NCBI GenBank assembly: GCA_022818135.1
Contig: JAFMSR010000016.1
Location: forward strand, 4,249,721 to 4,313,720
DNA: 64,000 nucleotides
Direction of reading: 5' to 3'
DNA from: Saxidomus purpurata
Taxonomy: Eukaryota; Mollusca; Bivalvia; Venerida; Veneridae
Under the pieces are notes generated by a model. The model had not been told where the DNA came from and searched no databases. It saw only the letters and a list, made by a program, of their open reading frames with translations. A program made the translations under genes and the position numbers. Numbering within the stretch: the first letter of the stretch is position 1; every line of letters begins with the position of its first letter. Below are positions 9,859 through 61,863 of this stretch, piece by piece.

Positions 9859-9883
9859 CAAATCATCGGGTCGGAGCAAAATC
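8293..9883. repeat. Widely spaced 25-bp inverted repeat flanking 1.54 kb
   Basis: Positions 8293-8317 and 9859-9883 are reverse complements at 24 of 25 positions (core CTCCGACCCGATGATTT against AAATCATCGGGTCGGAG). The right arm overlaps the place where the Ig3 exon of gene A should begin. The arms may be the ends of an inserted element or the scar of an inversion. I see no clear target duplication. Confidence 0.5.
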
Positions 9884-9887
9884 ATTG

Positions 9888-16085: not shown

Positions 16086-19000
16086 ATGGATTTGTATTTT
16101 TCCATCTGTGTGTTTTGTATTCTTGTCATATTTGAGGGTAATTCTTTGCAATTTATTTCATTATCATAACATTAGAAGTAACACCTATATAAACAAGACA
16201 TTGTGTGCCTATTGTTGGTATGCTTACTGTTTCCTTGGAAGGTAATTTGTCTTTAATTCAATTATTCTCGACAGTCACATCTCAGGTCTTCATAATTGAC
16301 AAATGCTTAATACAGAGAGTTTGTACTTACAGAAGGTTTTATACTTACTACATATTAAAACAGACACGTCGCTTCAGGACAGAGTTCATTGCAAAACGAC
16401 CAATGCTATACTATGCATAGCCAGCCACCTAAAACAAAGTTTGGCAGATGCTCCTTGTAACAGATTTGTAACAGCTTTCGTACGTATGCGATGTAATTTG
16501 TAAAATATGTTGCGAATTTTAAATGGGATATTTAACAAGCACATATGTACGTCGAGTTTTATACTGCAAATGTTTCTATTCAATATGGTATTCATCGCAA
16601 CGTCATTATGACGCAATAAGCCCATCACAAGTTAGCGTCTTCATGACGTCAATGATTCGTAATAAAATTATTTTAGTTGCATTAAAGGGCTTTGGAATTT
16701 AGCGCTATGTGAATAATGCAGTTATCATAAATAGTCGTTGCCATGGTAAGTACAATTAGTAGATCTAACATTGTCGGACTATCAGTTTATCTAGCCCAAG
16801 GGCTATAAGTGACAAAAAAGGAGCATATGATTTGTTGTTCATTCGATCCCCTGTCAGCAATCTATCTCGATAATAGATAAAAATTGCATAGGCAATTCAA
16901 ATTTTGTAAGATCGAGGTAACATATGAAATTACTTTATCAGCTGGGATAAACCATAGATTAAAGTTGTAAGCCTATATAACGTTTAAATATACATTTTTT
17001 GTCATACCTTCGAGTTATATTTATAATTTATGGTCATTTCGCATAAAATTTTTTAGATACCTTAGCATATGCAACTGGAAAGCTCAGGAATTTAAAGTTT
17101 CCAGCGAAAATACATCGTTTTGACTGTTGATGCAAATTTTATTTACTCTGATGAAAGTATCTATGAGTGTAATTAGAAAGGTACATAGGTTATCATGATT
17201 TGAATTATATTGAGTTTTTGAAAGATTTTCCAAAATTCTTTTTTTCAATTAATAAAAGCGTAAAAATATCTGATGGCTCATTAATTTAGCTATAACTGTG
17301 TTGGAGTGCTTTAGAAATTGAAGCATTCCCCGGAGGTGATGTACCTGGGGGAATAATTCACGAGGGCGAAGCTTAAGGTTAAACCCGACATTACGCTATC
17401 GGAAATGTTGGTTCTGCCAAATGAATTTCAAAATGAGCGAGTGGTTCAAATTATATGGCAGATAATTTTGATTTAACGTTTAAACCTGCGTTGACATAAC
17501 ATGGCTAATTGCATTGATGCTCTTCTTTGGGAAACCAGCTCTTAAGCTTCTTTTCTATATGAAATTTATATCATTCGATCATTTTAAAATTCATGTAACG
17601 GAAGAATCTACCCATTTGCTTCATAAATGCAAGACATGATAGCTTTCGTGCATCGATAGCTAAAATAAGCTAAAGCTAAAGAAAGAAAAAGGCAGGTTGT
17701 GCGTTAGAAGTTTCGGATAGTATATTTTGGTACCAAAACAGTAACGTTGTATTAAATTTCAGGCTTCGTCTTTGGTGAAGTTGTTATTACGCCTATAAAT
17801 CCTAGTATTCGTGAGAACGACTCTGTGACACTCGCATGTGCCACTGAATTCGCTAATATCAGAGCATTTCATTGGTATCAGGTAAAATCGACAACTACAA
17901 AAGTTCATTTGGATCTCGACTCTTCATGTAAAGATGTTAAAGATATCGACACCAGTTTGTACGAATATGCATGCCATAACAGTACACAGTATACTTTGAC
18001 AATAAAAAAGGTGACTAGAAAGAATCATGGTGATAGAATACTTTGTAGAAGTGAAACGTCTTCTGAAATACAAGACAGTAGATATACATATTTAAACGTA
18101 CAAGGTATAATTTATTCTTTTTACACAAGTTTTCATTGTTTTCATTTGGAAGTATGTGACAGCACGGCCTTTTCTTTGACATACTTAGTGTACATCTGGT
18201 ACAATAATAATATCAATCTGGATAATCCCCTGAGAAAGCAAAGAATAGTACCCGTAGCAAACAGATTAATTGCAAAGTAATTAACAAAAGAATCAATTCT
18301 AATGTAACAATAAAAGAAGAAAAATGTCACCAAAAGTATAAAGTTAAGCTTAAATATTGAAATATTATGGCAACCCTTAACCAAGCGCAAAAATACAGTG
18401 CGTCTAATAAAACCAAACAAAGAACGAAGCACAAGACACAAGGTTAAACCCGACATTACGCTATCGGAAATGTGGGTTATCTGAAATGTAGGATAAAGAC
18501 TTCATCAATTTCCATATACTTTAATTTTGGAATAATAAGTCTGCTTTCTGGAGTGTACATTAATTAATTGGTTTTCTTTCCGTTGACATTTGCAGTTCCA
18601 GTATCATCAGCGAGCATGATCGTTCCAAATACCTCAGAAGTGACTTTGATGGAGAAAAAGGAAGAGGTCCTCTCATGTAAAACATCAGGAGGCCTTCCAG
18701 AAGCAACAGTTACCTGGTATAAAGATCCAGGGTCACCAGATGATTCCAGTGACGATGTTGAGATTACTTCAAATATAGAAACATCGTCTAGTACTGTGAA
18801 TGATCTAATAGAAGTTACCAGTACACTGAGATATTCACCGAGCAGGAATGACAATGGATGGAGGATATACTGTACAGCAAGCAATATACCTAGCAGAGAC
18901 CCTGCTATTTCAGAGCTAAAACTTCTACTTAATGTACACTGTATGTTACAACACCACAATACATATCTATCGTCAGTTAAGATGTATTGATAAATTCAGC

Positions 19001-21318
19001 AGTTATATACAGAAATGCTTTTTCGGTCGCTTTATTTTTGTCGAAAGTTTTTTTAATGAAAAAATAAATTTGAAAGCACAGCGACGCATTTAGAAAATTT
19101 GAATCAATAAATTCTTATATTAAGTAATAGTCTATATTGCAAAAAGAATAAGAAAGAAGTTTTTAAGTGCTCTACTTTATTCTATGCATTTTCACAATTC
19201 CAATTAAGTTCATTGTATCAAAACAACCCCCGTCTCTGTTTAAGACTGCCTGCATAAACAAATGATAAGAGGCATGTGTTGCGAGCAAAGTAATACTTCT
19301 TCTTTAATTGAAATAACTTACTCCAGTATATTTCATTAACATTCCATTGATTGATTTTACCACACCATGCTAGCATGTACTTGTTAAATTATTTGAAAAT
19401 ACAAAGGGAAGGGGTATATGAGACAGCTTAGACTAGAATCAGTCTTTTTTATGTGATTTGACGGATACATCACGCCAAAGTCCTACTTATGAGCAAAACA
19501 AATGCCATTGGTATTTGAATATATAATTGATTTAGATTCTATGATATTGTCATGTTGTGACAGAAGAACACCTTTATTTTATTTCAGATGAAGCATTTAT
19601 TACACATTTTGCCATTGATGGAAATACTGAAGACGAAAATGAAGAAAAGATACAGCTAACCTGCAAAGTGGATAGTAACCCTGCATCAACAGTGAAAATA
19701 ATGTCCGAAGGCAACATGTTAAAAGAAGAGTCTAACGTAACTGCTATTTCTGTTATACATAGTAATGTTGCTTGCCGTTACAGAGGCGATTATACATGTG
19801 AAGCAAGTAACAGCTATGGGCATCCGTCAAGGAAAGTGCTCACGTTGTTCGTCAAATGTAAGTAACAGAGTATTGAGTGTTATTACTTTGATATTCAATG
19901 TAATGAACAGACAAAACCATGAAATGCGTAAGGCATGAAACGAAAGTATTAAAGCAAACCCTTCAGAGACAACTCGATTGCAAACCTGTGAAACAGGGAA
20001 CATAGCAACACAGTGTTTACTCAGGTATCAGGAAACTGCAATTTGCCAAGTTATGCCTAGGCATGCCCAGCTTAAGTACATCTTTACAGCTTTTACTCTA
20101 ATACAAAACAGTGAAGTGTAAGATAGCCCTGCCTAGAACTTTCAAGCCATTTGTTCTGAAAGACAATAATTTTGGGCTGAGATATGAAGGTTTAGATACG
20201 CATAAATAGAGTACGAAGTCAGACAGTAGACGATATAAAATGCATAGTATGTAGAAGTAATATAATTTGGCTCAAGAAAAGTGTGCTTATTTATGTTGAA
20301 ATTATCACACTTGAATTAAAAAATAAAAGAATTTCTACGTATTTTCCCTTTCTCAGGTTTATTAAAAACATCTTCATCTAATATGGAAACAAACATCACC
20401 GGTATCATACTCGGAACTATTCTTGGAATAGTGTGTGCCGTTCTGGCAGTATATGGAGCATTTATTACTGTCTTGTACAGGAGAAAACAAACACAGACCG
20501 GTAAATTGAAATATAAAATCAAAACGAAATGTTCACTATTAAGCTAAAAACAATAAACTAAACAACCTTCTACTAGTTTTCATTATGCAAATCGAGCAAA
20601 ACACTTTGTACACCGAATGAACAAGTCTGATGAATTCTCCAAATTGTTAATATAAAATTCATACATGCATAAGAACCTAAGAATTACTGTAAAAAGTATA
20701 AGTAAGCCAAACCATTAAGTGATGCAGTTACTTTTTATCCAACCAACTAACTACGGCAATGTTAAAACTAAACTTTATTGTTCGAAATGGTAATTACCTA
20801 ACATACTGGTATGACATCCTGTTTATCTGAATTTCAGACGTAACATCTTCAAACGAAGCAGTAGAACAAAGGTGAGCAAATTTTGCGGTTGAAACTTACA
20901 AACATAAATTGAAAACGAAGTTCGTCTTAAATCATGCAAGTAGTAACAGTAACAATACTCCTGAGGGTAGAAGAGAAAACTCGAGACATCCAAATTCAGA
21001 ATAATATATCTCATCACAATAACTAATGTGTCCTCTGACTGTACTACCATTACGTAACGATATAGGTGAAAAGTAACCCATATATACTAAACTCCGCAGT
21101 TAATCAATAAATGCTGTTGCCATGCCAATACATACACAACGAAACAATTTCATTCCAGGACATACGCGAACTTAAATGTGACTGAAAATCGTGCATCCCA
21201 AGAGGAACACGCGCAAAACAATGAAGATGAAGATGATACTGCAAGACAGTACACAGATCTTATCCAGTATTCAAATGATGATCGAACAACGTATGAGGTC
21301 ATCCAAGCAGCTAATTAA
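16086..21318 (+). CDS. IgSF receptor gene B, three Ig domains, tyrosine-motif tail (448 aa)
   Basis: Coding exons: 16086-16137, 17763-18104, 18596-18940, 19588-19857, 20357-20500, 20838-20871 and 21159-21318. All have GT-AG borders and phases that join cleanly to 1347 nt. Exon 1 encodes MDLYFSICVFCILVIFE, a signal peptide; this start was chosen because position, length and phase are conserved in C and D. Ig1 (residues 18-131) has core cysteines in LAC and ILC plus an extra pair in SSC and YAC. Ig2 (132-246) has cysteines in LSC and IYC and WYKDPG. Ig3 (247-336) has cysteines in LTC and YTC. A transmembrane helix spans about 350-378, followed by YRRK as stop-transfer. The tail has Y398 (YANL), Y427 (YTDL), Y433 and Y441 (TTYEVI). 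This fits a type I surface receptor signalling through phosphotyrosine. The ligand is unknown and immune function is inferred. AATAAA lies at 21474-21479. Confidence 0.82.
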
Positions 21319-23100: not shown

Positions 23101-24669
23101 CATGATGTGTATGTATACATTATTTTATATTTTTAGTGGCCATATTTTCTGGCAGTGGTTAAAAAAATGCTCTGGAAGTGTCACAAATCTACCTACACGA
23201 TACATAAAATAATGACCATATATAAATCTAGCATTAATTTTTAGTACACATTTTTTTGCTTTGTAGTGTAAATATCTATATTGTTAATTTCTATTGTCTT
23301 GATATATGAAGAATGGCCTTCTGTTCTGTGTTTTACTTGAATGCATCAAGCATAGAATTTAATCACTACAAATCATGGTGAGCTATAATCCGATGCAAGC
23401 TGCATAGGATGCTTTTTTCAGTTTTTGTTAAAAACAAAAATAATATGGCCAAATTTGGCAGGGAAACAAATGCTCAAGTGTAGCAAAAACGCAGCCGATC
23501 CCAAAAATGAGCCTATATATCCAGTAATACCCAATTTTATGATGTGTGTTTCCATCTAACACTATTGAACCCACAGTTCTTTTTTGTACATGCATCACAC
23601 ACACACACACGCAAACATACATGCAACACACAAGGACACACGTTTTGTTACAGACATGTATATTTTAGTTTCATAGTATCATGTTCATAACGAGTAATTA
23701 TTTGTACATTTAAAGATAAGAATAATAAGTATTACATTTACTTCCTTGATAATTGTTAAAACAGTTCATGCCCATTACTCATTAAGTACTTCAGCAGAAA
23801 TGATTATACTGCATATTTACGTGAAACATGTTAAAACAGACATAATTAGATTAAAGGTAACAAAATACCATAAGTATTACGGGAATTTAGAAATATAAAC
23901 AACATTTCTTGAAGAAGCAGAATTGTTTGCTTGTTCTTTAAATGTCTCTTCTTTTTACAATTCATTCTTCCGAAAGGGCAACTATGAACAAACTTCATGT
24001 GCTTTGAAAAGGACTTTAGCACGATATGAAAGTAATATATTTTCACGGCATTGTTTTGACCTAAATCCCCCTTATTGTCAAAATAAGTCTACATCACCAA
24101 TGAGGTTGAACTCTAAGATCGCACATCAGAGGAAGCTCGGACTTCTAGCACGGAATAGTTCGTTGAAATCCTTTCAGCGGACATTCGTCCAATAATAATA
24201 CTGGGTAGAAGTCTATCTGAAAGCCTACTTAATTGAATTCATGTCTATATAAATATAAATACGGACTATATACACACGTTTGAACGAAAATGTCTGTGCA
24301 ATCCGGTAATGTTTTTAACTTGACCAATAATCAGTTGTTTAATCATTATTTAAACGTTTATTGATGTAAATTATTATACTGATGTGAACTTCCGTGTTCA
24401 ATATTTGAATATATATATACATTATACTTTATATATCTATAGTCCGACTTCGAGCACGGATCCGTGAATTTACTTTTAGCTTATTGTAAAACGACGGTGA
24501 AAAACGAGAAAAAACATAAAGGTGGTAGCTCAAGGGTCAAATATAGACTATAACACTGATCAGCAGGATATATACCACTCAAAACTGATTTAATGTATTA
24601 TTTCGACAACCTCAACCAAGTAATACACGAAGTATTGTCATTTATTTAAATGACTGGGAATTTGTCAAC
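23100..24669. other. Left part of duplicated unit C, upstream of gene C
   Basis: From about 23100 the sequence parallels 42700-44027 closely, including a TA-rich stretch (24410-24440) about 230 bp before the start codon of gene C that could hold a core promoter. A block shortly before the start codon (GACAACCTCAACCAAGTAAT in C) is conserved in B, C and D and is a candidate 5' UTR or proximal promoter. No coding exon is seen. Confidence 0.45.
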
Positions 24670-27600
24670 ATGAATTTGTATTACTCAAACTGTGTGTTAG
24701 GAATTCTTGTCGCGTTTGAGGGTAATATATTACAATTTATTTTATTATCATTACATTAGAATTTAAAAGTAACACCTATATTAACAAGACATTTTGTGCC
24801 TTTTGTTGGTGTGTTTACTGTTTACCGGAAGGCAATTTGTCTTGTTTACAATCATTCTCGACAGTCACATCTCAAGTCTTCATATTTCACAAATGTTTAC
24901 TACAGAAAGGTTTGTACTTACAGAACGTTTTGTACTTACTCATATTAAATAAGACACGTATATGGAACGCCATATGTGCCTCCTATACATACTTCTAAAA
25001 TGGTGATGTCCTTTTGAAATATGGTGATGTCATTCTGATAGATGGTGCTGTGGTTTTGATAGATGATGCTGTGGTTTTGATACATGTTGCTGTGTGGTTT
25101 TGATAAATGGTGCTGTGGTTTTGATAGATGGTGATGCCGTTTTGAGATATGGTGCTGTGGTTTTGATAGATGGTGATGTCGTTTTGATAGATGGTGATGT
25201 CGTTTTGATAGATGGTGATGTCGTTTTGATAGATGGTGCTGTGGTTTTGATCGATGTCGTTTTGATATATGGTGCTGTGGTGTTGATAAATGGCGATGTC
25301 GTTTTGATAAATGGTGATGTCGTTTTGATAGATGGTGCTGTGGTTTTGATAGATGGTGCTGTGGTTTTGATAGATTATGATGTCGCTTTGATCAGTTAAT
25401 TGTTTTGTCTCTGGTATCCCTACTTTGTTAGTGTTTTTTTTCAAATAAATATCTTAAACCAACTGACGACAAAATTGCCTCCATTTTCACGGTGTCAGTA
25501 CAGCTTTACCCTCATCAACCTGATCCGGTCAACAACTAAGTCATCTATAAATAGTCCAACATCATCGTAATAACAACATGACAGAACCATATATCAAAAC
25601 AACATCACCATATATAAAAGACACATCACCATACATTGTATATAAAAATGACAGCACCATATATCGAAACCACAACACCATATATAAAAATGACAGCACC
25701 ATATACCAAAATGACGGCACCATATACCAAAATGACAGCACCATATATCAAAATGACATCACCATATATCAAAACCAGGCACCATCTATCAAAACCACAG
25801 CACCATATATCAAAACAACAGCACCATTTATCAAAAGCACATCCCCATTTATCAAAACCACAGCACCATCTATCAGAACGACATCACCATCTATCAGAAT
25901 GACATCACCATATATCAAACTGACATCACAATATATCAAAAGAACATCACTATTTAAGAAGAATGTATAGAAGGCAGCTATGGCGTTCCATACACGTCGC
26001 TGCAAGACAGCATTCATCGCAAAACGACTTATTTATACTACGCCAACCTAAAACAGAGTTTGACAGATGACTTTGAAGCTGTTATGCTGTGAATTTGGAA
26101 ATAGTTGCGATTTAAATGGAAAATTCAATAACAGAACGTTTTCTATGTGATATAGACGCGATAGTTTTTATTATTTTCAAAATGTGTAGATAAAGATTTA
26201 GCGATAAAAAATCATTATCATAAATATGATATTATATACATGTACAATTATTGTAGGACTACTTTACAGCAACTATTAGTAACAATTGTTCACGATATGT
26301 AAATTTTTTAAAGGAATTTGTAGATATTGCAATTACAAATATACTTTCAAGCAGCTGGGCTCCAGTAGATTATTGTAAATTCTAAGACATTTGCATATAT
26401 TAATTTTTGCTTTTTTCACGTTTTGTAGATAAAGCAATTGCAACGTAATCAGAATTTGTAATACTGTTTAACACTCTAAAATTCATATATCTTTTGTCAG
26501 AAAAGTATACGAGTGTTAAAAGATAAAATTATCAATTTTCATTTTGTTCTTTTTTGTGTTAAATGGCATTCAAATTTTGTAAAGTCTGCCTCTGTATAGA
26601 ACTCTATAAACTTTGTATTTTGGTACCAAAACAGTAACGTTGTATTAAATTTCAGGTTTCGTCATTGGTGAAAAAGCTGTTATTACGCCTGTAAATGCTA
26701 CTATATATGAGAATGACTCCGTGACACTAGCATGTACCTTAATGGACACCAAATCTAATTATATCCGTATATCTGAATGGTATGTGAATAGTCCAAAAAA
26801 TGTGGTTGGGGCTTTCGACTCATCATGTAAAGAAATTAAAAGTATCGACGCCAGTTTGTACGAGTATACGTGCCCTAACACAACACAGGTTACTTGGACA
26901 ATAAAGAAGGTGACTAGAAAGAATCATGGGGATGGAATTGCTTGTATCCTTACAGCTACCCGTATATGGCTCGCAATCCATAGTGAAAAAACATTTTTAA
27001 ACGTACAAGGTATAATTTGTTCTTTTTACAAAGGTGTTCATTGTTTTCATTAAAAAGAAGTATGTGACATCACAGCCATTCCTTTGGCAAACTTAATGTT
27101 TATCTCGTAAAATAGTGATATCACGCTGGATAATCCCCGGAAAAAGCAAAGAAAAGAATAGATATATAAATATATATTAATAAAACAGCAAAACGTTCAA
27201 GATTTGGCGAAAAAAAAACGGTTATTGCCAACTATCACCATGCATAGTAACCGTCTCAGCAAACTCATTAATAGCAAAGCCATAAACAAAAGAATAAATT
27301 CTAATGTTACAGCCAAATTGAAAAATGACAGCAAAAGTATATAGTTCAGCTTAAACATTGAACAATTATGACAACCCTTAATTAAGCGCAAAAAGTAAAG
27401 AGCTTAGACCAGTTAGAGCACAAACGTACAATGCGTCTAATAACAAGTGGCCCAAAACACAGATACTCGGGGTTTGGACATAAATTTCAATTATTTTTTT
27501 CTGTCAAAACCCCGAGTATCTGTGGCCCATGAGGGCCAGTATCGCTCTAATGGTCTGACTGTACTGTTCTGAGTAAGTTTTGTGAACATCTTTTGCAATC

Positions 27601-30600
27601 AGGCAAAAGCTAACAGGAAAAAGCTAACAGAGTTCACTGTGACCTTGGCCTACTGACACCAAAAACAGTCGGGGATATCTACTCAGTAAGACCAATCATC
27701 CTATGACGTTTAAAGACTTTGGGTGATGTAGCTCTCAAGATATTGAGTGGAAAAAATTTTCAAAGTTTTAGAAACTGTGTTCTTAACCTTTGACCGACTG
27801 ACCAAAAAATACTTTGCATACTTTATTTTCGGAAGGCTAACACAAACCGTTAGATTTTTTTAGATATTTTTTTAAGGGGAGTGTAGAGCCAAAGGAAAGC
27901 GTTGAAATAGGTTGCTAACGGGGTGCACCCAACAAGCAACAAAATAATCTCACATGCAGTTTTTGTACTGGCAATTCATCCCACGTTACTTGAGTGGGAG
28001 CGGACGGACAAACGGACGACGGACAAACCATCATGACATAAGCTGTAATGGACTTAGTCCAGTAGAGCTAAAAACCAAACAAAGAACGCACAAGAAGACA
28101 CAAGGTTGAACCTGACATTACGTTTATGGATATTTTGGTTATCTGAAATGTAGAAGAAAGACTTCATCAATTTCCATATACTTTAATTTTGGAATAATAA
28201 GTCTGCTTTCTGGAGTGTACATTAATTAATTGGGTTTTTTTCGTTAACATTTGCAGTTCCAGTATCATCAGCGAGCTTGATCGTTCCAAATACATCAGAA
28301 GTGACTCTGATGGAGAAAAAGGAAGAGGTCCTCACATGTAAAACATCAGGAGCCCGTCCATCAGCCACAGTTACCTGGTATAAAGATCCAGGGACACCAG
28401 ATGATTCCAGTGACGATGTTGAGATTACTTCAAATATAGAAACATCGTCTAGTACTGTGAATGATCTTATAGAAGTTACCAGTGCGTTGAGATATTCTCC
28501 AAGAAGGAATGACAATGGATGTAGGATATACTGTACAGCAAGCAACAAACTTGGCAGGGACCCAGCTATTTCAGAGCTAAAACTTCTACTTAATGTACAC
28601 TGTATGTTACAACAATAAAATACATATATATCGTCAGTTAAGATGTATTGATAATTTCAGCAGTTATATACAGAAATGCTTTTTCGGTCGCTTTATTTTT
28701 GTCGAAAGTTTGTCTAATGAAATGAAAAAATAAATTTGAAAGCACCGCGACACATTTAGGAAATTTGAATCAATAAATTCTAATATTAAGTAATAGTCTA
28801 TATTGCAAAAAATAAGAAAGAAGTTTTTAAGTGCACTACTTTATTCTATGCATTTTCAATATTCCAATTAAGTTCATTGTATCAAAACACCCCCGTCACT
28901 GTTTAAGACTGCCTGCATAAACAAATGATAAGAGGCATGTGTTGCGAGCAAAGTAATACTTCTTCTTTCATTGAAATAACTTACTCCAGTATATTTCATT
29001 AACATTTCATTGATTTTACCACACCAGACAGCTTAGACTAGAATCAGTCTTTTTTATGTGATTTGACGGATACATCACGCCAAAGTCCTACATATGAGCA
29101 AAACAAATGCCATTAGTATTTGAATATATAATTGATTTAGATTCTATGATATTGTCATGTTGTGACAGAAGAACACCTTTACTTTATTTCAGATGAAGCA
29201 TTTATTACACGTTTTGCCATTGATGGAAATATTGAAGGCGAAAATGAAGAAAAGATACAGCTAACCTGCAAAGTGGATAGTAACCCTGCATCAACAGTGA
29301 AAATAATGTCCGAAGGCAAAACGTTAAAAGAAGAGTATAACGTAACTACTATTTCTGTTATACATAGTAATGTTGCTTGCCGCTACAGAGGCGATTATAC
29401 ATGTGAAGCAAGTAACAGCTATGGGCATCCGTCAAGGAAAGTGCTCACGTTGTTCGTCAAATGTAAGTAACATAGTATTGAGTGTTATTACTTTGATATT
29501 CAATGTAATGAACAGACAAAACCATAAAATGCATAAGGCATGAAACGAAAGTATTAAAGCAAACCCTTCAGAGACAACTCGATTGCAAACCTGTGAAACA
29601 GGGAACATAGCAACACAGTGTTTACTCAGGTATCAGGAAACTGCAATTTGCCCAGTTGTGCCTATGCATGCCCAGCTTAAGAACATCTTTACAGCTTTTA
29701 TCTTAATACAAAACAGTGAAGTGTAAGATAGCCCTGCCTAGAACTTTCAAGCCATTTGTTCTGAAAGACAATAATTTTGGGCTGAGATATGAAGGTTTAG
29801 ATACGCATTATTATCTATCTTAGTAATGTTAAAATAGAGTACGAAGTCAGACAGTAGACGATATAAATGCATATAGTATGTAAAAGTAATATAATTTGGC
29901 TCAAGAAAAGTGTGCTTATTTATGTTGAAATTATCACACTTGAATGAAACAATAAAAGAATTTCTACGTATTTTCCCTTTCTCAGGTTTGTCGAAAACAT
30001 CTTCATCCAATATGGAAACAAACATCACCGGCATCATCCTCGGAACTATTCTTGGAATAGTGTGTGCCGTTCTGGCAGTATATGGAGTATTTATTACTGT
30101 CTTGTACAGGAGAAAACAAACACAGACCGGTAAATTGAAATATATATATGTCTAAAATCAAAACGAAAAGTTCACTGTTAAGCTTAAAACAATAACCTAA
30201 ACAACCTTCTACTAGACTTCATAATGCAAATTGAGCAAAATACTTTGTACACCGAATGAACAAGTCTGATGAATTCTCCAAATTGTTAATATAAAATTCA
30301 TACATGCATAAGAACCTAAGAATTACTGTAAAATGTATAAGTAAGTCAAACAATTAAGTGATGCAGTTACTTTTTATCCAACCAAAAGACTGAACGCTAA
30401 ACCAAACTTTATTGTTCGAAATGGTAATTACCTAATATACAAGTATGACACCCTAATTGATCTATTTATCTGAATTTCAGATGTAACATCTTCAAACGAA
30501 GCAGTAAAACAAAGGTGAGCAAGTTTTGCTGTTGATACTTACAAACATAAATTGAAAACGAGGTTAGTCTTAAATCATGTCTGTAGTAACAGTACTACTG

Positions 30601-30983
30601 GAGGTAGAAGTGAAAACTCGAGACAGCTAAATCCAGAGTAATATATCTTGTCACAAGAACTGCTTGTAACTTTTTAATATGTCCTACGACTGTAACACCA
30701 TTACGTAACCATGTAGGAGAAAAGTAACCCATATATGCCAAACAACGCAGTTAATATTACTCTTAAAATTAATAAATGCTATTGTCATGCCAATACATAC
30801 ATAACGAAACAATTGCATTACAGGACATACGCGAACTTAAATGTGACTGAAAATCGTGCATCCCAAGAGGAACACGCGCAAACCAATGAAGATGAAGATG
30901 ATACTGCAAGACAGTACACAGATCTTATCCAGCATTCAAATGACGATCGAACAACGTATGAGGTCATCCAAGCAGCTAATTAA
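24670..30983 (+). CDS. IgSF receptor gene C, three Ig domains, tyrosine-motif tail (452 aa)
   Basis: Coding exons: 24670-24721, 26656-27009, 28257-28601, 29193-29462, 29986-30129, 30481-30514 and 30824-30983, summing to 1359 nt in frame. The signal exon encodes MNLYYSNCVLGILVAFE. Ig1 is 354 nt, 12 nt longer than in B, with core cysteines in LAC and IAC and extra cysteines in SSC and YTC. Ig2 departs from B and D at several sites (GARPSA, SPRRNDNGCR, NKLGRD), including a tryptophan-to-cysteine change two residues before the IYC motif. Ig3, the transmembrane exon and the micro-exon are close to D. Tail tyrosines are Y402 (YANL), Y431 (YTDL) and Y445 (TTYEVI); the middle tyrosine of B is histidine here. 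Intron 1 contains a foldback element, and the Ig1-Ig2 intron a repeat shared only with D. AATAAA is at 31139-31144. Surface receptor by architecture; ligand unknown. Confidence 0.82.
24961..25991. mobile_element. Foldback element with arms made of 21-bp tandem repeats
   Basis: The element lies in intron 1 of gene C. Outer ends TATGGAACGCCATA and the inverted TATGGCGTTCCATA are followed by TGCC and (T)TCTATACAT in both orientations. Inside, the left arm (about 25000-25390) is an array of a 21-bp unit such as GATGGTGATGTCGTTTTGATA. The right arm (about 25575-25960) is the same array inverted (TATCAAAATGACAGCACCAT). A centre of about 185 bp is unique. Gene B has the empty site GACACGTCGCTTC; here ACACGT appears on both sides, giving a 6-7 bp target duplication. 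Long open frames (repeated VVLIDGD or its reverse) are products of the 21-nt period and not genes. Drosophila FB and Galileo elements have comparable architecture. Confidence 0.8.
27447..28073. repeat. Inserted repeat in the Ig1-Ig2 intron of C, absent from B
   Basis: Between GCGTCTAATA and AACCAAACAAAGAACG, gene B has almost nothing, while C has about 630 bp and D about 930 bp. The insert has GGGCCAGTATCGCTC near its start, a GTGACCTTGGCC module, and GGACTTAGTCCAGTAGAGCT at its end. This dates the insertion after B split off and before C and D separated. Confidence 0.65.
27458..27524. mobile_element. 67-bp hairpin MITE nested in the C intron repeat
   Basis: Perfect 18-bp inverted ends CACAGATACTCGGGGTTT (27458-27475) and AAACCCCGAGTATCTGTG (27507-27524) enclose 31 bp. 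The matching site in D reads continuously from AACAAATGGCC to AAAAGGGCC without this hairpin. Confidence 0.65.
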
Positions 30984-31139
30984 AACTTTCTTGTTATCAG
31001 TATTAAAAAATAGAAGAGTGTTCAAAAATCAAAATGTAACAGTTACTATGTACATGTATATTAAAGGTTATGAAGGCAATACATGCATTATCTTGCTACA
31101 ACCTGTAAACAACTTCACAAGTTTATAATGACTATTGTA

Positions 31140-32700: not shown

Positions 32701-32916
32701 TCAAGACGTCGTTTCTGTTATAGTTTCGCACATGTTCACTGCTTTTTATGAGGTATACGAGATAATATCATTAAATTGTTATTATTATGTATTTTTACAA
32801 TATATTGTAAAACATGTACTCTCTGTAATGCATCTATCACATATATATAATGTGAATTGTTTTGTACATTGTAATTGGTGAAAATTTAATAAATGTGTAA
32901 TACTGATATATACGGA

Positions 32917-44027: not shown

Positions 44028-47000
44028 ATGAATTTGTATTATTCAATCTGTGTGTTAGGAATTCTTGTCACGTTTGAGGGTAATACATTACAATTTATTT
44101 TATTATCCTTACATTAGAAGTAACACCTAAATTAACAAGACATTTTGTGCCTATTCTTGGTGTGCTTACTGTTTACTTGGAAGACAATTTGTCTTGTATA
44201 CAATTATTCTCGACAGTCACATCTCAAGTCTTCATAATTGACAAATGCTTAATACAGAAAGGTTTGTACTTACAGAAGGTTTTATACTTACTCATATTAA
44301 ATAAGACACGTCTATGACACGTTTTTTGAGCGTATGTCGTATTAAAAGAAAGTTTCAACAATTTAAACAATTTTTGTCTCACTTTTGCATATCTAACTTT
44401 GGCAAACAAATATACTATTTGAAAAATATGATTGTTCAATTGAAATGTATAACTAGCAAATCATATTTTGTTTCATAATGCTTTATCGACGGTATGTTGT
44501 TGTTGTTGCATTTTAATTCTTCTTTTATATTGTTGAAGGCCATATGGAAATAAAATTGTTCTAAATTAAAAATTTACTTCTACAAATATATTTCCGCACT
44601 AACTTTTGGTCTAAATTTTTGAGTGTCTGTCTTATCAAAAGAAAGTTTCAACAATTTTAACAATTTTTGTCTTACTTTTGTCATATCTAACTTTGCAAAA
44701 AAATAGACTTTTGAAAAATATGATTGTTAAATTGTAAAAATGTATAAGTAGTAAATCATATTTTGTTTCATAATTCTCTATCAACGGTATGTTATTTTTG
44801 TTGCATTTTAATTCTTCTTTTACATTGTTGAAGGCCATATGAAAATAAGATGTATTTTGATTTACATGTAAATCCTTGTATGTCTGATATGTAACCTTCA
44901 TGAAATAAATAAAGATTTTATTATTATATGGAACGCCATAGGTGCCTTCTATACATACTTCTAAAATGGTTATGTCCTTTTGATATATGGTGATGTCAGT
45001 TTGATATATTCTGGTGTCATTCTGATAGATGGTGCTGTGGTTTTGACAGATCGTGATGTCGTTTTGACAGAAGGTGATGTCGTTTTGATAGATGGTGCTG
45101 TGGTTTTAATACATGGTGCTGTGTTTATGATAGATGGGCTGTGGTTTTGATATATGGTGCTGTGGTTTTGATAGATGGTGATGTCGTTTTGATATATGGT
45201 GCTGTAGTTTTAATAGATAGTGATGTCGTTTTGATAGATGGTGCTGTGGTTTTGATAGATGGTGATGTCGTTTTGATAGATGGTACTGTGGTTTTGATAA
45301 ATGGCGATTTCGTTTTGATAAATAGTGATGTCGTTTTGATCGATGGTGCTGTGGTTTTGATAGATGGTGCTGTGGTTTTTAAAGATTATGATGTCGTTTT
45401 GATCAGTCAATTATTTTATCTCCGGTATCCCTACTTTGTTAGTGTTATTATTTTCAAATAAATATCTCCAACCAACTGACGACAAAATTGCCTCCATTTT
45501 CACGGTGTCAGTACAGTTTTACCCTCATCAACCTGATCCGGTCAACAAGTAAGTCATCTATAAATAGTTCAACATCATCGTAATAACAAAATGACAGAAC
45601 CATATATCAAAATAGCATCACCATATACATGTATAAAAGCCACATCACCATACATTGTATATAAAATGACAGCACCATATATCGAAACCACAGCACCATA
45701 TATTACAAGAGCTGTCAGTGGGACAGCGCGCTCGACTTTTTTAGTGCTTGCCAATAAAACAAAACTTTGACAGTTAAGGGCACACAAGACTTTAGTACAA
45801 ATTAAGAAACATTTTCACAGAGTTATCTTCTCTTGCTTACAGATAGGTCTCATGATGGTACATAAGTACCCCAACTTTCAAAGTAATATATCAAATGGTT
45901 AAGTCAACAAGTGGACAAGAATGAAAATTTTAACTGAGTTTCTAAGTAAAAAAAGGCCATAATTCAAATAAAATCCTTGACAGAATTACCTTCTCCTGCC
46001 CAAGTTTGGGGATCATGATGGTAAGCAAGTATTCCAACTTTCAAATTAATATCTCAAACAGTTTACTAAAAAAGTGGACTGGTACGAAAAACTTAACCAA
46101 GATTCTAAGTCAATAAAGAGCCTTAATTCTTAAAACAAATCCCTGACAGAGATACCTTCTCTTGCCTACAGATGGGGGTAATGATGTAAACAAGCATTCA
46201 AAGTTTCAAAGCAATATCTCAAAGGGTTAAGGCAATAAGTGGATTTTACCCATATTCAATGTATTTTCTAAGTAAAAAAGGGGCATAATTCTGTTAAAAA
46301 ACCTTGACAGAGTTATGTACTCTTGTCTGTTGATGTAGGTCATGATGGTAAACAAGTATGGTTAGTTTCAAAGCAATACCTCTAATGGTTTTGAAATAAA
46401 GTGAGGTGGTACGAAAAACTTAACCAAGCTCAATACACTTTCTAAGTCAAAAAAGGGCCATAATTCTGTCAAAAACCTTGACAGAGTTATGTGCTCTTGT
46501 CGGTAGATCGAGGTTATAATGGTAAAGAAGTATGGTAAGTTTCAAAAAAACAAAAATAATATCAAACAGGGAATGCCAAGCCATACCTCTAATAGTTTTG
46601 AAATAAAATGGGGTGGTACGAAAAACTTAACCAAGGTGTGACACCAACGCGGACGCCGACGCCGGGCGAGTAGGATAGCTCCCCTTTTCTTCGAAAAGTC
46701 GAGCTAAAAATGACAGCACCATATACCAAAATGACAGTACCATATATCAAAACGACATCACCATATATCAAAACCACAGCCCCATCTATCAAAATCACAG
46801 CACCATATATCAAAACGACATCACCATTTATCAAAACCACATCACCATTTATCAAAACCACAGCACCATCTATCAAAACCACAGCACCATCTATCAGAAT
46901 GACATCACCATATATCAAACTGACATCACCATATATCAAAAGGACATCACCATTTAAGAAGAATGTATAGAAGGCAGCTATGGCGTTCCATACACGTCGC

Positions 47001-50000
47001 TGCAGGACAGCATTCATTGCAAAACAACTTAACTATGATACGCATAGCAAGCTATCTAAAACAGAGATTGACAGATGACTTTAATGCTGTTATGCTGTGA
47101 ATTTGGAAATATTTGCGATTTAAATGGTATATTCAATAACAGAACGTTTTGACAACATATTTTCTATGTGATCTATATTATCATCAACGTCTTGGCGAAA
47201 GCCTTCTTCCGGAAATAGACGCGATAGTTTTTTTATTTTCTAAATGTATAGATATAGATTTAGCGATAAAAAATCATTATCAAAAACACGATATTATATA
47301 CATGTACAATTATTGTAGGACTACTTTACAGCAACTATTGGTGACAATTGTTCACGATATGTAGATATGTAAAATCTTTAAAGGAATTTGTAAATATTGC
47401 AATTACAAATGTACTTTCAAGCAGCTTGGCTCCGGTAGATTATTGTAAATTCTAAGACATTTGCATATATCTATTTTTGCTTTTTTCACGTTCTGTAGAT
47501 AAAGCAATTGCAACGGAATCAGAATTTGTAATACCGTTTAACACTCTAAAATTCATATATCTTTTGTCAGAAAAGAATACGAGTGTTAAAAGATAAAATT
47601 ATCCATTTTCATTTTGTTCTTTTTCGTGTTAAATGGCATTCAAATTTTGTAAAGTTTGCTTCTGTTTAGGACTCTATAAACTTTGTTTTTTGGTACCAAA
47701 ACAGTAACGTTGTATTAAATTTCAGGTTTCGTCATTGGTGAAATAGCTGTTATTACGCCTGTAAATGCTACTATATATGAGAATGACTCTGTGACACTAG
47801 CATGTACCTTAATGGACACCAAATCTAATTATATCCGTATATCTGAATGGTATGTGAATAGTCCAATAAATGAGGTTGGGGCTTTCGACTCATCATGTAA
47901 AGAAATTAAAGGTATCGACGCCAGTTTGTACGAGTATACGTGCCCTAACACAACACAGGTTACTTGGACAATAAAGAAGGTGACTAGAAAGAATCATGGG
48001 GATGGAATTGCTTGTGCCATTACAACTATAAGATCATGGCACAGAATACATAGTGAAAAAACATTTTTAAACGTACAAGGTATAATTTGTTCTTTTTACA
48101 AAGGTGTTCATTGTTTTCACTAAAAAGAAGTATGTGACATCACGGCCTTTCCTCTGACAAACTTTATGTATATTTCGTAAAACAGTGATATCACGCTGGA
48201 TATTCCCGGGAGAAGCAAAGAAAAGAAAAGATATATAAATATATATTAATAAAATAGCAAAACGTTCAAGATTTGGAGGGAAAAAAACGGTTATTGCCAA
48301 CTATCACAATGCGTAGTAACCGTCAGCAAACACATTAATAGCAGAGCCATAAACAAATCAATTCTTATGTTACAACCAAATTGAAAAATGTCAGCAAAAG
48401 TATATAGTAAAGCTTAAACATTGAACAATTATGGCAACCCTTAACCAAACGCAAAAAGTAAAGAGCTTAGAACAGTAAGAGCCCAGAAATACAATGCGTC
48501 TAATAACAAATGGCCGAAAAGGGCCAGTGTCGCTCAACTGGTCTGACTGCACTGTTCCAAGTAAGTTTTGTGAAAATCTTTTGCAATGTTATCAAGCAAA
48601 AGCTAACAGAGTTCACTGTGACCTTGACCCACTGACCCCCCAAAAAAACAGTTGGGATCATCTACTCAGTAAGACCAATCATCCTATGACGTTTGAATAC
48701 TTTGGGTGATGTAGCTCTCAAGATATTGAGTGGAAAAGATTTTCAGTTTTAGAAACTGACTTACTTGACCTTTGACCCACTGATCAAAAAAACAATAGGG
48801 ATTATCTGCTCGGTGAGACCAATTATCCTATGAAGTTTGAAGACTGTGGGTCAAATAGATCTCCAGATACTGAGCGGAAAAGATTTTCAAAGTGCGTGTC
48901 ACTGTGACCTTGACCTTTGACAAACTAACCAACAAATAGATACGGATCATCTATATGTTACAGGAAACCTTCTGAGCTAGTAAGATGAAAACTGTGACCC
49001 GTAGAGCGTTATCAAGGAAAGTCTAACGGAGATCACTGTGACCTTGACCTTTAACCCAATGAGCCCAAAAACAATCGGGATCATCTACATGTTTCAGGGA
49101 ATCGCATGAGAAACAAAGGGGATAATGCTTTAAATTTCATTTTTCAAAAGCTTTATGGGGTTCTCAAAATTGTCTATTAACTTCTGGGGTGCGATGTCCA
49201 AATGCATGTGGGTGTTTTGCATACTTTATTTTCGTGTTTAGTGTAAAGCTAAAGGAAACCGTTTAAATAGGTTGCTAACGGGGAGCACCCAATAAGCAAC
49301 AAAAATCCCACATGCAGTTTTCGTACTGGCAATGCATCCCACGTTACTTGAGTGGGAGCGGACGGACAAACGGACGACGGACAAACCACCATGGCATAAG
49401 CTCTGCTGGACTTAGTCCAGTAGAGCTAACAACCAAACAAAGAACGCACAACAAAACACAAGGTTGAACCCGACATTACGTTTTTGAAAATTTTGGTTAT
49501 CTGAAATGTAGACGAAAGACTTCATCAATTTCCATATACTTTAATGTTGGAATAATAAGTCTGCTTTCTGGAGTGCACATTAATTGATTTGCTGTTTTTC
49601 GTTGACATTTGCAGTGTCTGTATCATCAGCGAGCATAATCGTTCCAAATACCTCAGAAGTGACTTTGATGGAGAAAACGGAAGAGGTCTTCAAATGCAAA
49701 ACAACGGGAGGCCTTCCAGAAGCAACAGTTACCTGGTATAAAGATCCAGGGTCACCAGATGATTCCAGTGACGATGTTGAGATTACTTCAAATATAGAAA
49801 CATCGTCTAGTACTGTGAATGATCTAATAGAAGTTACCAGTACACTGAGATATTCACCGAGCAGGAATGACAATGGATGGAGGATATACTGCACAGCAAG
49901 CAATATACCTAGCAGAGACCCTGCTATTTCAGACCTAAAACTTCTACTTAATGTACATTGTATGTTACAACAACAAAATACATATCTATCGTCAGTTAAG

Positions 50001-53000
50001 ATGTATTGAAAATTTTCAGCAGTTATATACAGAAATGCTTTTTCGGTCGCTTTTTTTGTCGAAAGTTTGTCTAATGAAATGAAAAAATAATTTAAAAGCA
50101 CCGCGACACATTTAGGAAATTTGAATCAATGATTTCTAATATTAAGTAATAGTCTATATTGCAAAAAATAAGAAAGAAGTTTTTAAGTGCACTACTTTAT
50201 TCTATGCATTTTCAAAATTCCAATTGAGTTCATTGTATCAAAACACACCCGTCTCTGTTTAAGACTGCCTGCATAAACAAATGATAAGAGGCATGTGTTG
50301 CGAGCAAAGTAATACTTCTTCTTTCATTGAAATAACTTACTCCAGTATATTTCATTACCATTTCATTGATTTAACCACACCATGCTAGTATGTACTTGTT
50401 AAATTATTTGAAAATACAAAAGGAAGAGGTGTATGAAACAGCTTAGACTAGAATCAGTCTTTTTATGTGATTTGACGGATACATCACGCCAAAGTCCTAC
50501 ATATGAGCAAAACAAATGCCATTAGTATTTTAATATATACAGTAAAACCTCGATAACTCGAGGTCGCACGGGGACGAGTAAAATGCTCGAGTTATCCGGG
50601 TTCTCGAGTTATCCGAACCATGAAAATTTCATAGGCATAGGCAAAAAATAGCTTTGAAACTGATTTGAAACAAAGAAAAGGCACATTTCTTTCAGTCATG
50701 ACCCTTTTTAACTTCCATGATGGCATTGTATTTAAACTCAATAGTCTTCGTCTCCAACTTGCATTTTGTTCCTGTTTTCGTTTTCTGCTTGTCCGATCTA
50801 GCTACTATATTCTCCCGAGATCGGGTTCTTCGCTAGATGTTTATTTCTATAATCTATTCGTGTTTATTTCTATATTTCAAGAAAGAATATGCAATTTGGG
50901 ATTTTCTCTCAAGCTTTATCATCAAAAGTTTACCCAGACTCAAAATTTCCATCTTCTCGTCATCAAGTTCTCGTAATTAAAAACTCGCAAACAATTTTCT
51001 TTATTTTCTTCTTATTCAATAAAAGTAACAAGTGGCTGTAATTACACATGATTTAAGACGATTTACATGATGTGCGAATAACATTTTATTCATTTTAGCC
51101 ACTGGACGGGCGATTAATCGATAATTAACGAGAACTATCAATTAACAATAAAAGTTTTTCCCATGACATGTCAAAATAATGATGCACCATCGGAGGTGAG
51201 AAAAATCTGATAATCAGTGACCTCGAGTTGCCGCAGGTAATTTAGTAAGAAATCTACCTGGCGGGACCACAGGTGTTCCTCGAGTTATCCGGGGTTCTCG
51301 AGTTATTGATGCTCGAGTTATCCATAGTATTTTCTGGTTAAACATATAGGCAAAATTGCCGGGACCGACATGAGTCCTCGAGTTATCCGGGGTTCTTGAG
51401 TTATCGATGCTCGAGTCAACGAAGTTTTACTGTAATTGATTTAGAGTCTATGATATTGTCATGTTGTGACAGAAGAACACCTTTATTTTATTTCAGATGA
51501 AGCATTTATTACACGTTTTGCCATTGATGGAAATATTGAACGCGAAAATGAAGAAAAGATACAGCTAACTTGCGAAGTGGATAGTTACCCTGCATCAACA
51601 GTGAAAATAATGTCCGAAGGCAACATGTTAAAAGAAGAGTCTAACGTAACTACTCTTTCTGTTATACATAGTAATGTTGCTTGCCGTTACAGAGGCGATT
51701 ATACATGTGAAGCAAGTAACAGCTATGGGCATACGTCAAGGAAAGTGCTCACGTTGTTCGTCAAATGTAAGTAACATAGTATTAAGAGTTATTACTTTGA
51801 TATTCAATGTAATGAACAGACAAAACCATAAAATGCATAAGGCATAAAACGAAAGTATTAAAGCAAACCCTTCAGAGACTAATCGATTGCAAACCTGTGA
51901 AACAGGGAACATAGCAACACAGTGTTTACTCAGGTATCAGGAAACTACAATTTGCCCAGTTATGCCCAGTTATGCCTAGGCATGTCTAGCTTAAGTACAT
52001 CTTTACAGCTTTGATTACAAGGATACACAACAGTAAAGTGTAAAACAGCCCTGTCTAGAACTTTCCATTTGTTCTGAAAGACAATAATTTTTGGCTGAGA
52101 AATGAAGGTTTAGATACGCATTATTATCTAACTTAGTAATGTTAAAATAGAGTACGAAGTCAGACAGTAGACGATATAAAATGCATAGTATGTAAAAGTA
52201 ATATAATTTGGCTCAAGAAAAGTGTGCTTATTTATGTTGAAATTATCACACTTGAATGAAAAACTAAAATAATTTCTACGTATTTTTCCTTTCTCAGGTT
52301 TGTCGAAAACATCTTCATCCAATATGGAAACCAACATCACCGGTATCATACTCGGAACTATTCTTGGAATAGTTTGTGCCGTTCTGGCAGTATATGGAGC
52401 ATTTATTACTGTCTTGTACAGGAGAAAACAAACACAGACCGGTAAATTGAAATATATATGTCTAAAATCAAAAAGAGAAGTTCACTGTTAAGCTAAAAAC
52501 AATAAACTAAACAACTTTCTAATAGACTTCATTATGCAAATTGAGCACAACACTTTGTACACCGAATGAACATGTCTGATGAATTCTCCAAATTGTTAAT
52601 ATAAAATTCATACATGCATAAGAACCTAAGAATTACTGTAAAAAGTATAAGTAAGTCAAACAATTAAGTGATGCAGTTACTTTTTATCCAACCAAAAGAC
52701 TGAACGCTAAACCAAACTTTATTGTTCGAAATGGTAATTACCTAATATACTAGTATGACATCATAATTGATCTTTATGTATGAATTTCAGACGTAACATC
52801 TTCAAACGAAGCAGTAGAACAAAGGTGAGCAAGTTTTGCTGTTGATACTTACAAACATAAATTGAAAACGAATTTCGTATTAAATGATGCCAGTAGTAAC
52901 AGTAACAGCACTATTGGGGTAGAAGAGAAAACTCGAGACTGCTATATTCAGAATTACAGATCTCGTCACAAGAACTGTTTATAACTTTTAACATGTCCTC

Positions 53001-53298
53001 CGACTGTAACACCATTACGTAACCATGAAGGAGAAAAGTAACCCATATATGCCAAACTCCACAGATAAATATAACTCTTAAAATTTATACATGTTGTTGC
53101 TATGCCAATACATACATAACGAAACAATTTCATTCCAGGACATACGCGAACTTAAATGTGACTGAAAATCGTGCATCCCAAGAGGAACACGCGCAAACCA
53201 ATGAAGATGAAGATGATACTGCAAGACAGTACACAGATCTTATCCAGCATTCAAATGACGATCGAACAACGTATGAGGTCATCCAAGCAGCTAATTAA
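44028..53298 (+). CDS. IgSF receptor gene D, three Ig domains, tyrosine-motif tail (452 aa)
   Basis: Coding exons: 44028-44079, 47726-48079, 49615-49959, 51497-51766, 52298-52441, 52791-52824 and 53139-53298, summing to 1359 nt in frame with consistent phases. The signal exon encodes MNLYYSICVLGILVTFE. Ig1 is nearly identical to C except for the stretch after the second core cysteine (AITTIRSWHRIHSEK here). Ig2 instead resembles B (GGLPEA, SPSRNDNGWR, NIPSRD). Ig3 has its own changes (TCEVDSYP, GHTSRK). The transmembrane segment (TGIILGTILGIVCAVLAVYG) equals that of B. Tail tyrosines are Y402, Y431 and Y445, as in C. Intron 1 is enlarged to 3.6 kb by nested elements, and the Ig2-Ig3 intron holds a pogo-like element. 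AATAAA is at 53454-53459. The immune role is inferred. Confidence 0.82.
44313..44926. mobile_element. Inserted dimer of a ~294-bp repeat with AATAAA and an ATT tail
   Basis: Two tandem copies share AAAAGAAAGTTTCAACAATTT, AAATATGATTGTT, AATCATATTTTGTTTCATAA and TTGTTGAAGGCCATATG. The offset is 293-295 bp (for example TGTTGAAGG at 44531 and 44826). The insert ends AAATAAATAAAGATTTTATTATTAT directly before the foldback element. Unit C lacks it. The 3' end resembles that of a non-LTR retroposon, but no pol III box or protein was recognised. Confidence 0.6.
44927..46991. mobile_element. Foldback element with 21-bp repeat arms, copy in gene D
   Basis: Same element and same insertion position as 24961-25991: ends TATGGAACGCCATAGGTGCC and inverted TATGGCGTTCC, with ACACGTC on the right flank. 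The left arm array runs about 44960-45410. The right arm is split by a nested repeat at about 45706-46707. Number and order of 21-bp variants differ from C, so the arrays have changed length since the duplication. Confidence 0.8.
45706..46707. mobile_element. Nested repeat with ~165-bp internal modules and short inverted ends
   Basis: Inserted in the right arm of the foldback element in D only. It begins CAAGAGCTGTCAGTGGGACA, with GCTCGACTTTT near the left end and AAAAGTCGAGC at the right end as short inverted termini. Between them, about five modules of roughly 150-175 bp carry TTGACAGAGTTA..TTCTCTTG, CATGATGGTA and AAGGGCCATAATTC. Near the right end is ACGCCGACGCCGGGCGAGTA, a phrase I associate with bivalve dispersed repeats. 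No coding capacity. Confidence 0.65.
48503..49431. repeat. Inserted repeat in the Ig1-Ig2 intron of D, expanded modules
   Basis: Counterpart of 27447-28073 with extra copies of a module carrying GTGACCTTGACCTTTGAC and GATCATCTAC. Ends are the same as in C (GGGCCAGTGTCGCTC; GGACTTAGTCCAGTAGAGCT). The 67-bp hairpin found in C is absent. Confidence 0.65.
50540..51432. mobile_element. pogo/Tigger-like non-autonomous element, 893 bp
   Basis: Ends CAGTAAAACCTCGATAACTC and, inverted, CAGTAAAACTTCGTTGACTC are flanked by TA on each side. The corresponding intron position in C (ATATATAATTGATTTAG, about 29130) has a single TA and no insert. Multiple CTCGAGTTATCCG repeats lie near both ends. A 103-codon open frame (50665-50976) has no transposase motifs and is probably chance. 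Confidence 0.75.
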
Positions 53299-61818: not shown

Positions 61819-61863
61819 CTGTCTGGGTCAGATGTCCTTATTGCAGTCTGGCTCAGGGGTTTC

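Follow-up and report, generated by a model that had tools for sequence, protein, structure and literature searches.

What has happened to the loop at the position of the third complementarity-determining region (CDR3) in two tandemly duplicated receptors of the immunoglobulin superfamily (IgSF) in the bivalve Saxidomus purpurata? The question is raised by a stretch of 64,000 nucleotides (the window; C16:4249721-4313720 of the 1.135-Gb assembly), in which receptor genes C and D sit within a ~18-kb tandem duplication that also includes a TADA2A fragment. The two genes share an exon for a V-like first immunoglobulin domain (Ig1). Within it, the F-G hairpin of this recent receptor pair has been rewritten in one short, compact block, and the difference is real. 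The block and its exon are listed here together with the corresponding exon of the neighbouring gene B.

26946..26978, + strand: block of C, F-G hairpin (CDR3 position) of Ig1, ILTATRIWLAI; 14/33 nt differ from D, and this version departs more from the family
48016..48048, + strand: homologous block of D, AITTIRSWHRI; one genomic site within 3 mismatches
26656..27009, + strand: C exon 2, V-like Ig1, phase 1-1; splice sites TTTCAG/GTATAA, open frame, AlphaFold predicted local distance difference test (pLDDT) 88
47726..48079, + strand: D exon 2, V-like Ig1; exon model and predicted structure
17763..18104, + strand: B exon 2, V-like Ig1, with a loop two codons shorter (RSETSSEIQD); exon model

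The Ig1 exons of C and D (354 nt each) differ at 19 positions, 14 of them within 26946-26978 and five in the other 321 nt. A sequence-only reading of the window had counted 14 differences in 35 bases (C 26946-26980 against D 48016-48050), seven replaced codons and about five differences in the rest of the exon. Our recount agrees and places all 14 in 26946-26978; the substitution rate of the exon outside the block does not match that of the block. Seven residues are changed from C to D (I/A, L/I, A/T, T/I, I/S, L/H, A/R), and two further codons of the block differ silently, R103 (CGT/AGA) and I108 (ATC/ATA). When the 19 differences were placed at random, a 35-nt window holding 14 of them was never reached (0/200,000 trials). 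The same reading had described the flanking introns as near-identical, which is wrong: divergence is 5-9% in 200-nt bins beside the exon, and the C/D background, counted without gaps on 8,875 aligned sites, is 6.1%.

The block is unique in the whole C/D duplication, where only one of 10,022 ungapped 33-nt sliding windows contains 14 differences, namely the block itself. There are no differences in the 60 nt on each side of it (120 nt in all), and the mismatch-free runs extend to 104 nt before and 71 nt after; flanks equally free of mismatches occur at 1.7% of random points in the duplication. The runner-up among separate windows with flanks less than 15% diverged has 10 differences, with 11 in its flanks. 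The two blocks are nevertheless homologous, with 19/33 bases identical, a level matched by 5/100,000 base shuffles and 97/100,000 codon shuffles. The block has 6 transitions and 8 transversions where the background has 278 and 260, and this comparison of spectra is without power.

The AlphaFold model of Ig1 from C has the features of a V-type immunoglobulin domain, with two sheets that include C' and C'' strands, the core cysteine pair and the core tryptophan, and the top-ranked solved folds are T-cell receptor (TCR) V-beta and VHH domains. The block had been said to start directly after the second core cysteine, on the F-G loop, and the structure models support this, placing it in the F-G hairpin of a V-type fold. 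In antibodies and T-cell receptors the principal loop for antigen contact is found at this position. Unlike a V(D)J-type arrangement, the phase 1-1 exon at 26656-27009 encodes the whole domain including the G strand.

C and D belong to a tandem cluster at C16:4198-4303 kb that holds the genes W, X, Y, Z, A, B, C and D, with two further copies on C15 and C1319. Loop and surroundings were compared pairwise among seven intact Ig1 exons (W2, X1, Z, B, C, D and L008, the copy on C1319), the degenerate or interrupted W1, X2, X3 and Y being left out and the C15 exon being compared separately. The post-cysteine loops read LISWSSGNQN in W2, NIETSSGNQD in X1, NIETSSGNQN in the C15 and C1319 copies, SMYTSSGTQA in Z, RSETSSEIQD in B, ILTATRIWLAIH in C and AITTIRSWHRIH in D. 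An SSxxQ motif is present in 6/8 intact exons; C and D are without it and two codons longer. All 11 pairs involving C or D show a loop excess, with a divergence of 0.58-1.00 in the loop versus 0.04-0.51 outside. Among the 10 pairs without C or D, 46/100 loop residues differ versus 431/1036 outside (sums over non-independent pairs); the loop is higher in six pairs (W2/X1, W2/Z, W2/B, X1/Z, Z/B and Z/L008, with an excess of 0.02-0.26), equal in one and lower in three.

The recent paralogues on C15 (27094805-27095155) and C1319 (3778-4128) differ at 13 nucleotides of the Ig1 exon, 0/30 in the loop and 13/321 outside. Their changes lean to codons 52-68, where eight of the 13 lie within 48 nt; this clustering is strong at the widest window only, being equalled by 8, 111 and 279 of 5,000 random placements for windows of 48, 33 and 24 nt. 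Four Mercenaria proteins differ at 2-3 of 11 loop residues versus 0.17-0.34 outside, without a loop excess. Pairs of database proteins with P0001 give 0.7-0.9 in the loop versus 0.52-0.56 outside, and pairs with P0010 give 0.55-0.67 versus 0.38-0.43. The block had been called hypervariable, a description that stands for C and D, where the excess is strong, but as a family-wide trait is weak at best on the pooled counts. Judging from these comparisons, the loop may be somewhat faster-evolving over long times. Only C and D show strong hypervariability, and most of it falls on the C branch. Since the relatives show the loop excess weakly or not at all, the block looks more like a local rewriting event than part of a general hypervariable system.

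With Z, B, X1, W2 and L008 as outgroups, D matches more outgroups at seven of the 14 sites and C at three, the remaining four lying in the two extra codons, where changes cannot be polarised. Four sites have all five outgroups on the side of either C or D, and at 4/4 that side is D. By the Nei-Gojobori method, the proportions of nonsynonymous (pN) and synonymous (pS) differences are 0.446 and 0.360 in the block, and 0.016 and 0.015 in the rest of the exon. Silent divergence is accordingly 0.36 of 8.3 sites in the block versus 0.015 of 68.3 outside (Fisher p 0.003). Compared with Z and B, the loops of C and D have a silent divergence of 0.66-0.85, and the rest of the exon 0.24-0.28. The sequence-only reading had offered strong diversifying selection or conversion from a paralogous cassette. 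A replaced short tract is a better fit than point mutations selected at the protein level, because synonymous divergence in the block is raised as well; selection as the principal explanation finds little in a block pN/pS of ~1.2, and no paralogous donor was found for the loop of D in the assembly or for that of C in 194 kb of the cluster and nine further Ig1-like exons. Protein selection as the sole cause is disfavoured by the raised pS, which itself comprises few silent changes.

Signs of exchange are present in the second immunoglobulin domain (Ig2) of the same genes, encoded by these exons.

28257..28601, + strand: C Ig2 exon (C2-set_2; Pfam E 1.8e-13), mosaic with W-like patches by the mosaic tests
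49615..49959, + strand: D Ig2 exon, near that of B (14/345 differ)
18596..18940, + strand: B Ig2 exon; exon model

B agrees with D against C at 14 consecutive informative sites (28353-28522, 170 nt; 0/20,000 shuffles), while the intron upstream of Ig2 groups C with D at 45 sites versus 11 and 7 for the other groupings. At 15 sites C differs from Z, B and D alike, and eight of these match W (1.1 expected; 0/20,000). In the 30 nt from 28348, C has one difference from W (mean 6.3) and B has four. As controls, the D-specific sites match W at 0/4, X at 0/4 and Y at 2/4 (P 0.022), and the lone B-specific site matches none of them. Z-specific sites match W, X and Y at 5, 5 and 6 of 20 (P 0.011, 0.013 and 0.002); some of this matching is to be expected, as ancestral states were left in. 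The W-like patches of C lie between the first core cysteine and the tryptophan of Ig2. The FG-loop of Ig2 also comes in two versions, a compact NIPS in B and D versus NKLG in C and the upstream paralogue Z.

In each of B, C and D, six collinear exons keep the reading frame open as far as a stop codon, and an upstream exon is predicted to encode a signal peptide. The encoded order is V-like Ig1, Ig2, a third immunoglobulin domain (Ig3), a transmembrane (TM) segment and the tail.

24670..24721, + strand: C exon 1, predicted signal peptide MNLYYSNCVLGILVAFE; hydrophobic, with a phase-1 donor and similar candidates in B and D
44028..44079, + strand: D exon 1, predicted signal peptide, from its resemblance to the C and B candidates
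16086..16137, + strand: B exon 1, predicted signal peptide, from its resemblance to the C and D candidates
29193..29462, + strand: C Ig3 exon (Pfam Ig_2, E 4e-10)
51497..51766, + strand: D Ig3 exon; exon model
19588..19857, + strand: B Ig3 exon; exon model
29986..30129 (C), 52298-52441 (D) and 20357-20500 (B), + strand: transmembrane exon; exon models
30481..30514 (C), 52791-52824 (D) and 20838-20871 (B), + strand: 34-nt juxtamembrane exon; exon models
30824..30983, + strand: C tail exon, YTDL-x10-YEVI, identical to D across the exon and beyond
53139..53298 (D) and 21159-21318 (B), + strand: tail exon; exon models

The tail motifs are YxxL-x10-YxxI (YTDL-x10-YEVI) and TxYxxI, and the YxxL-x10-YxxL/I spacing is kept in 7/7 proteins examined, four of them from database searches. 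The motifs were classed against the consensus strings of the immunoreceptor tyrosine-based activation, inhibitory and switch motifs (ITAM, ITIM and ITSM). In the exon models, an Ig ectodomain is combined with a single TM segment and an ITAM/ITIM-type motif, which is the architecture of an immune-type IgSF receptor. The conserved tyrosine motifs in the tails uphold the earlier view of the cluster as one of signalling IgSF receptors. Cell-surface recognition with tyrosine-motif signalling is the likely role of C and D; an immune or allorecognition function, ligand contact by the loop and maintenance by selection would be further inferences. Homologous-protein searches returned 6, 11 and 2 hits, none near-identical and hence, it seems, none from S. 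purpurata itself; the strongest protein matches are from Mercenaria and Ruditapes, with weaker ones from Haliotis, which points to a heterodont bivalve.

Several candidate sources for the block were tried and set aside. The best donors inside the window match 20/33 bases of C and 22/33 of D, which is equalled by 139/200 and 31/200 shuffles. No sign of inverted copying or local template switching was seen: on either strand, the local matches to sub-blocks 14, 18 and 22 nt long are no better than those of shuffles. Compensating indels are rejected by a Hamming distance of 14 against an edit distance of 13. The degenerate third Ig1 exon of X (X3) has a loop-like translation, and local nucleotide alignments fail to place its loop on that of C.

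We tentatively favour an old loop version acquired by short-tract exchange or captured as an allele, and prefer this to a burst of change in place under selection. On this account, a bivalve V-type IgSF receptor with a signalling tail was duplicated in tandem to give C and D, and their F-G hairpins would be two loop versions that are older than the surrounding sequence or were exchanged independently of it. A tract of ~33-200 nt may have been swapped by gene conversion with a loop variant outside this assembly, the simplest candidate being a different allele of the C/D locus. Alternatively, unequal crossing-over between two haplotypes with already different loops could have produced the duplication itself. 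Contact of the hairpin with a ligand would keep the loop versions distinct, the framework and tail being constrained or homogenised. Exchange or older loop versions are suggested because the block is confined with clean flanks, is unique in the duplication, is raised in silent divergence and is homologous between the copies; exchange is also plausible because reticulation is present in Ig2 of the same genes.

A number of results weigh against exchange. The loop of D is the single site within 3 mismatches in the 1.135-Gb assembly, with no second copy, and in 194 kb of the cluster neither loop finds a match better than shuffles (best 20/33 for C and 22/33 for D; as good in 56/60 and 22/60 shuffles). 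Nine distant Ig1-like exons, taken from a genome-wide protein search (at least 40 matches among 44 scored candidates), were compared with both loops, and 17/18 comparisons are at shuffle level, the one marginal case being C against L031 (14/200 shuffles). D aside, no exon among the matches listed (at least 40) is more than 61% identical to the Ig1 of C. The expectation that each variant has a donor elsewhere thus failed for D within 3 mismatches in the whole assembly, and for C in the 194 kb and the nine exons. The silent signal amounts to few changes, two certain and one path-averaged, and loop pS is noisy also in pairs without C or D (0.15-0.82). The C-specific sites of Ig2 match X (6/15, P 0.0005) and Y (4/15, P 0.009) too, so that an alternative reading of the mosaic is the retention of old states by C, with a derived state exchanged among Z, B and D; the Ig2 pattern is reticulate under either reading, and its tracts concern Ig2, not the Ig1 block. 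Finally, the 6% background over 18 kb, TADA2A fragment included, resembles one recent duplication rather than long homogenisation.

The lack of a donor in these searches would be natural if point and multi-nucleotide changes had accumulated under strong positive selection in the hairpin of C, and earlier in that of the C/D ancestor, with nothing copied from elsewhere. We consider this unlikely, although 11/14 changes are replacements by path averaging, 7/10 polarisable changes fall on the C branch, C and D stay in register with T, R and W kept and no compensating indels, and the loop exceeds the framework in Z/B (0.60 vs 0.34) and in the cross-species pairs with P0001 and P0010. Under it, divergence would have to reach roughly sevenfold the background level within 33 nt and stay at zero over the adjoining 120 nt, and the block pN/pS of only ~1.2 goes with a raised pS. 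Selection is not needed if a conserved loop was lost in the C/D lineage and the hairpin of C then drifted in a redundant copy, as the loss from both C and D of the SSxxQ found in six other intact exons and the closeness of block pN to pS might suggest. Drift is bounded by the neutral rate, however, and the block differs at 42% of its bases against 5-9% in the introns, while both genes otherwise keep an open frame as far as the stop codon; relaxed constraint is accordingly improbable.

It is very improbable that one copy carries an assembly or consensus artefact. Near-identical tandem copies are hard to assemble, but the frame, the W/R/T register and the splice sites are intact with both loops, 14 scattered indel-free changes in 33 nt are unlike collapse or chimerism, and the loop of D matches outgroups at 7/14 sites. 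Programmed or somatic diversification, by templated conversion or hypermutation in haemocytes with one state per gene caught in the assembly, is the most improbable account of all. The CDR3 position is the only one so strongly hit, and the degenerate upstream Ig1 exons W1, X2 and X3 could serve as templates; yet the 194 kb that hold these exons contain no better-than-shuffle match to the loops, the loops are identical in the recent C15/C1319 pair, and a single exon holds the entire domain, no cassette array being visible. Returning to exchange, its boldest form is a polymorphic bivalve recognition locus in which haplotypes and gene copies hand on a CDR3-position hairpin to one another as a short cassette, within a homogenised framework and above a fixed ITAM-like tail. 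That would be germline CDR3 diversification without V(D)J, possibly for distinguishing self from non-self, and we regard it as quite unlikely.

A close parallel is the accelerated segment switch in exons (ASSET) of snake venom genes, for which PMC2711939 describes a short exon segment that is radically different between very similar paralogues with similar introns; cysteines and fold are kept, the segment belongs to the interaction surface, and no mechanism has been established. Here, 4/11 residues of the block are identical (ASSET, <50%), the other residues of the exon show only 4 changes (>60% identity in ASSET) and the introns, at the 6.1% divergence given above, fall in the >85% similarity range. 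In contrast to venom genes, the case is a bivalve membrane receptor, with one clear segment in one pair; its segments remain homologous, with 58% of bases shared, and segment types were not seen to recur in Ig1 (loop of D: assembly; both loops: 194 kb). Vertebrate antigen-receptor V domains (TCR V-beta, VHH) share the fold, ranking at the top, and the divergent hairpin at the CDR3 position, but here the G strand is in the same exon, there is no separate J segment and the difference is between germline genes.

Among invertebrate receptors, oyster CgIgIT2 is an ITAM-bearing IgSF receptor described with five Ig domains in PMC11999971. By that description it resembles C and D in its bivalve IgSF ectodomain, one TM segment and ITAM-type tail; it has five Ig domains instead of three, and here a divergent loop pair lies in a tandem cluster. 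The fester co-receptors (FcoRs) of the Botryllus fuhc locus, some of them polymorphic, also combine an N-terminal V-type Ig domain and more Ig domains with a TM segment, a tyrosine-motif tail and a clustered family, according to PMC12065747; they contain a sushi domain, unlike the genes here, in which no sushi exon was found. Hydractinia Alr, described in PMC11999971 and PMC12065747, is likewise an IgSF family whose members lie in a cluster and carry V-set domains and tyrosine motifs. By their titles and the openings of their abstracts, the papers found on bivalve IgSF, ITIM, hypervariability, gene conversion, or the Mercenaria immunoglobulins and genome describe no such receptor pair. If two loop versions are kept on a shared mollusc receptor, C and D would offer a compact, testable case of CDR3-loop diversification without V(D)J; if the loops are fixed in the population, they would represent an ordinary burst of divergence after duplication. 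The locus is also a clear case of divergence that is limited to one segment and includes silent changes, as known in venom genes.

Some further observations concern the cluster and its surroundings. W (L007 932-1659, C16:4198 kb) and X (L005 927-2522, C16:4215 kb) have two and three tandem Ig1-like exons, some with stops, which may be alternative or dying exons. Gene A (9794-12269) is a related receptor with the same tail type, in which tblastn recognised no Ig1 exon. Between C and D, 288 nt over the tail exon and 3' flank (30821-31108) are without mismatch, the longest such run in 23800-32800. Intron 1 of C and D contains 21-bp minisatellite arrays in both orientations (25000-25392, 25580-25941, 44966-45403, 46707-46953). 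A fuller copy of TADA2A (ZZ, Myb and SWIRM domains) and the partial copy inside the tandem duplication lie at 40651-41535 (-) and 60505-61827 (-). An open reading frame (ORF) resembling a Tc1/mariner transposase is located at 34059-34727, in a section of the C copy with no aligned counterpart in D. Elsewhere in the window there is an Ig-domain ORF on the opposite strand (6108-6557, -) and a 39-bp tandem array of 24 copies with several frames open (2637-3585).
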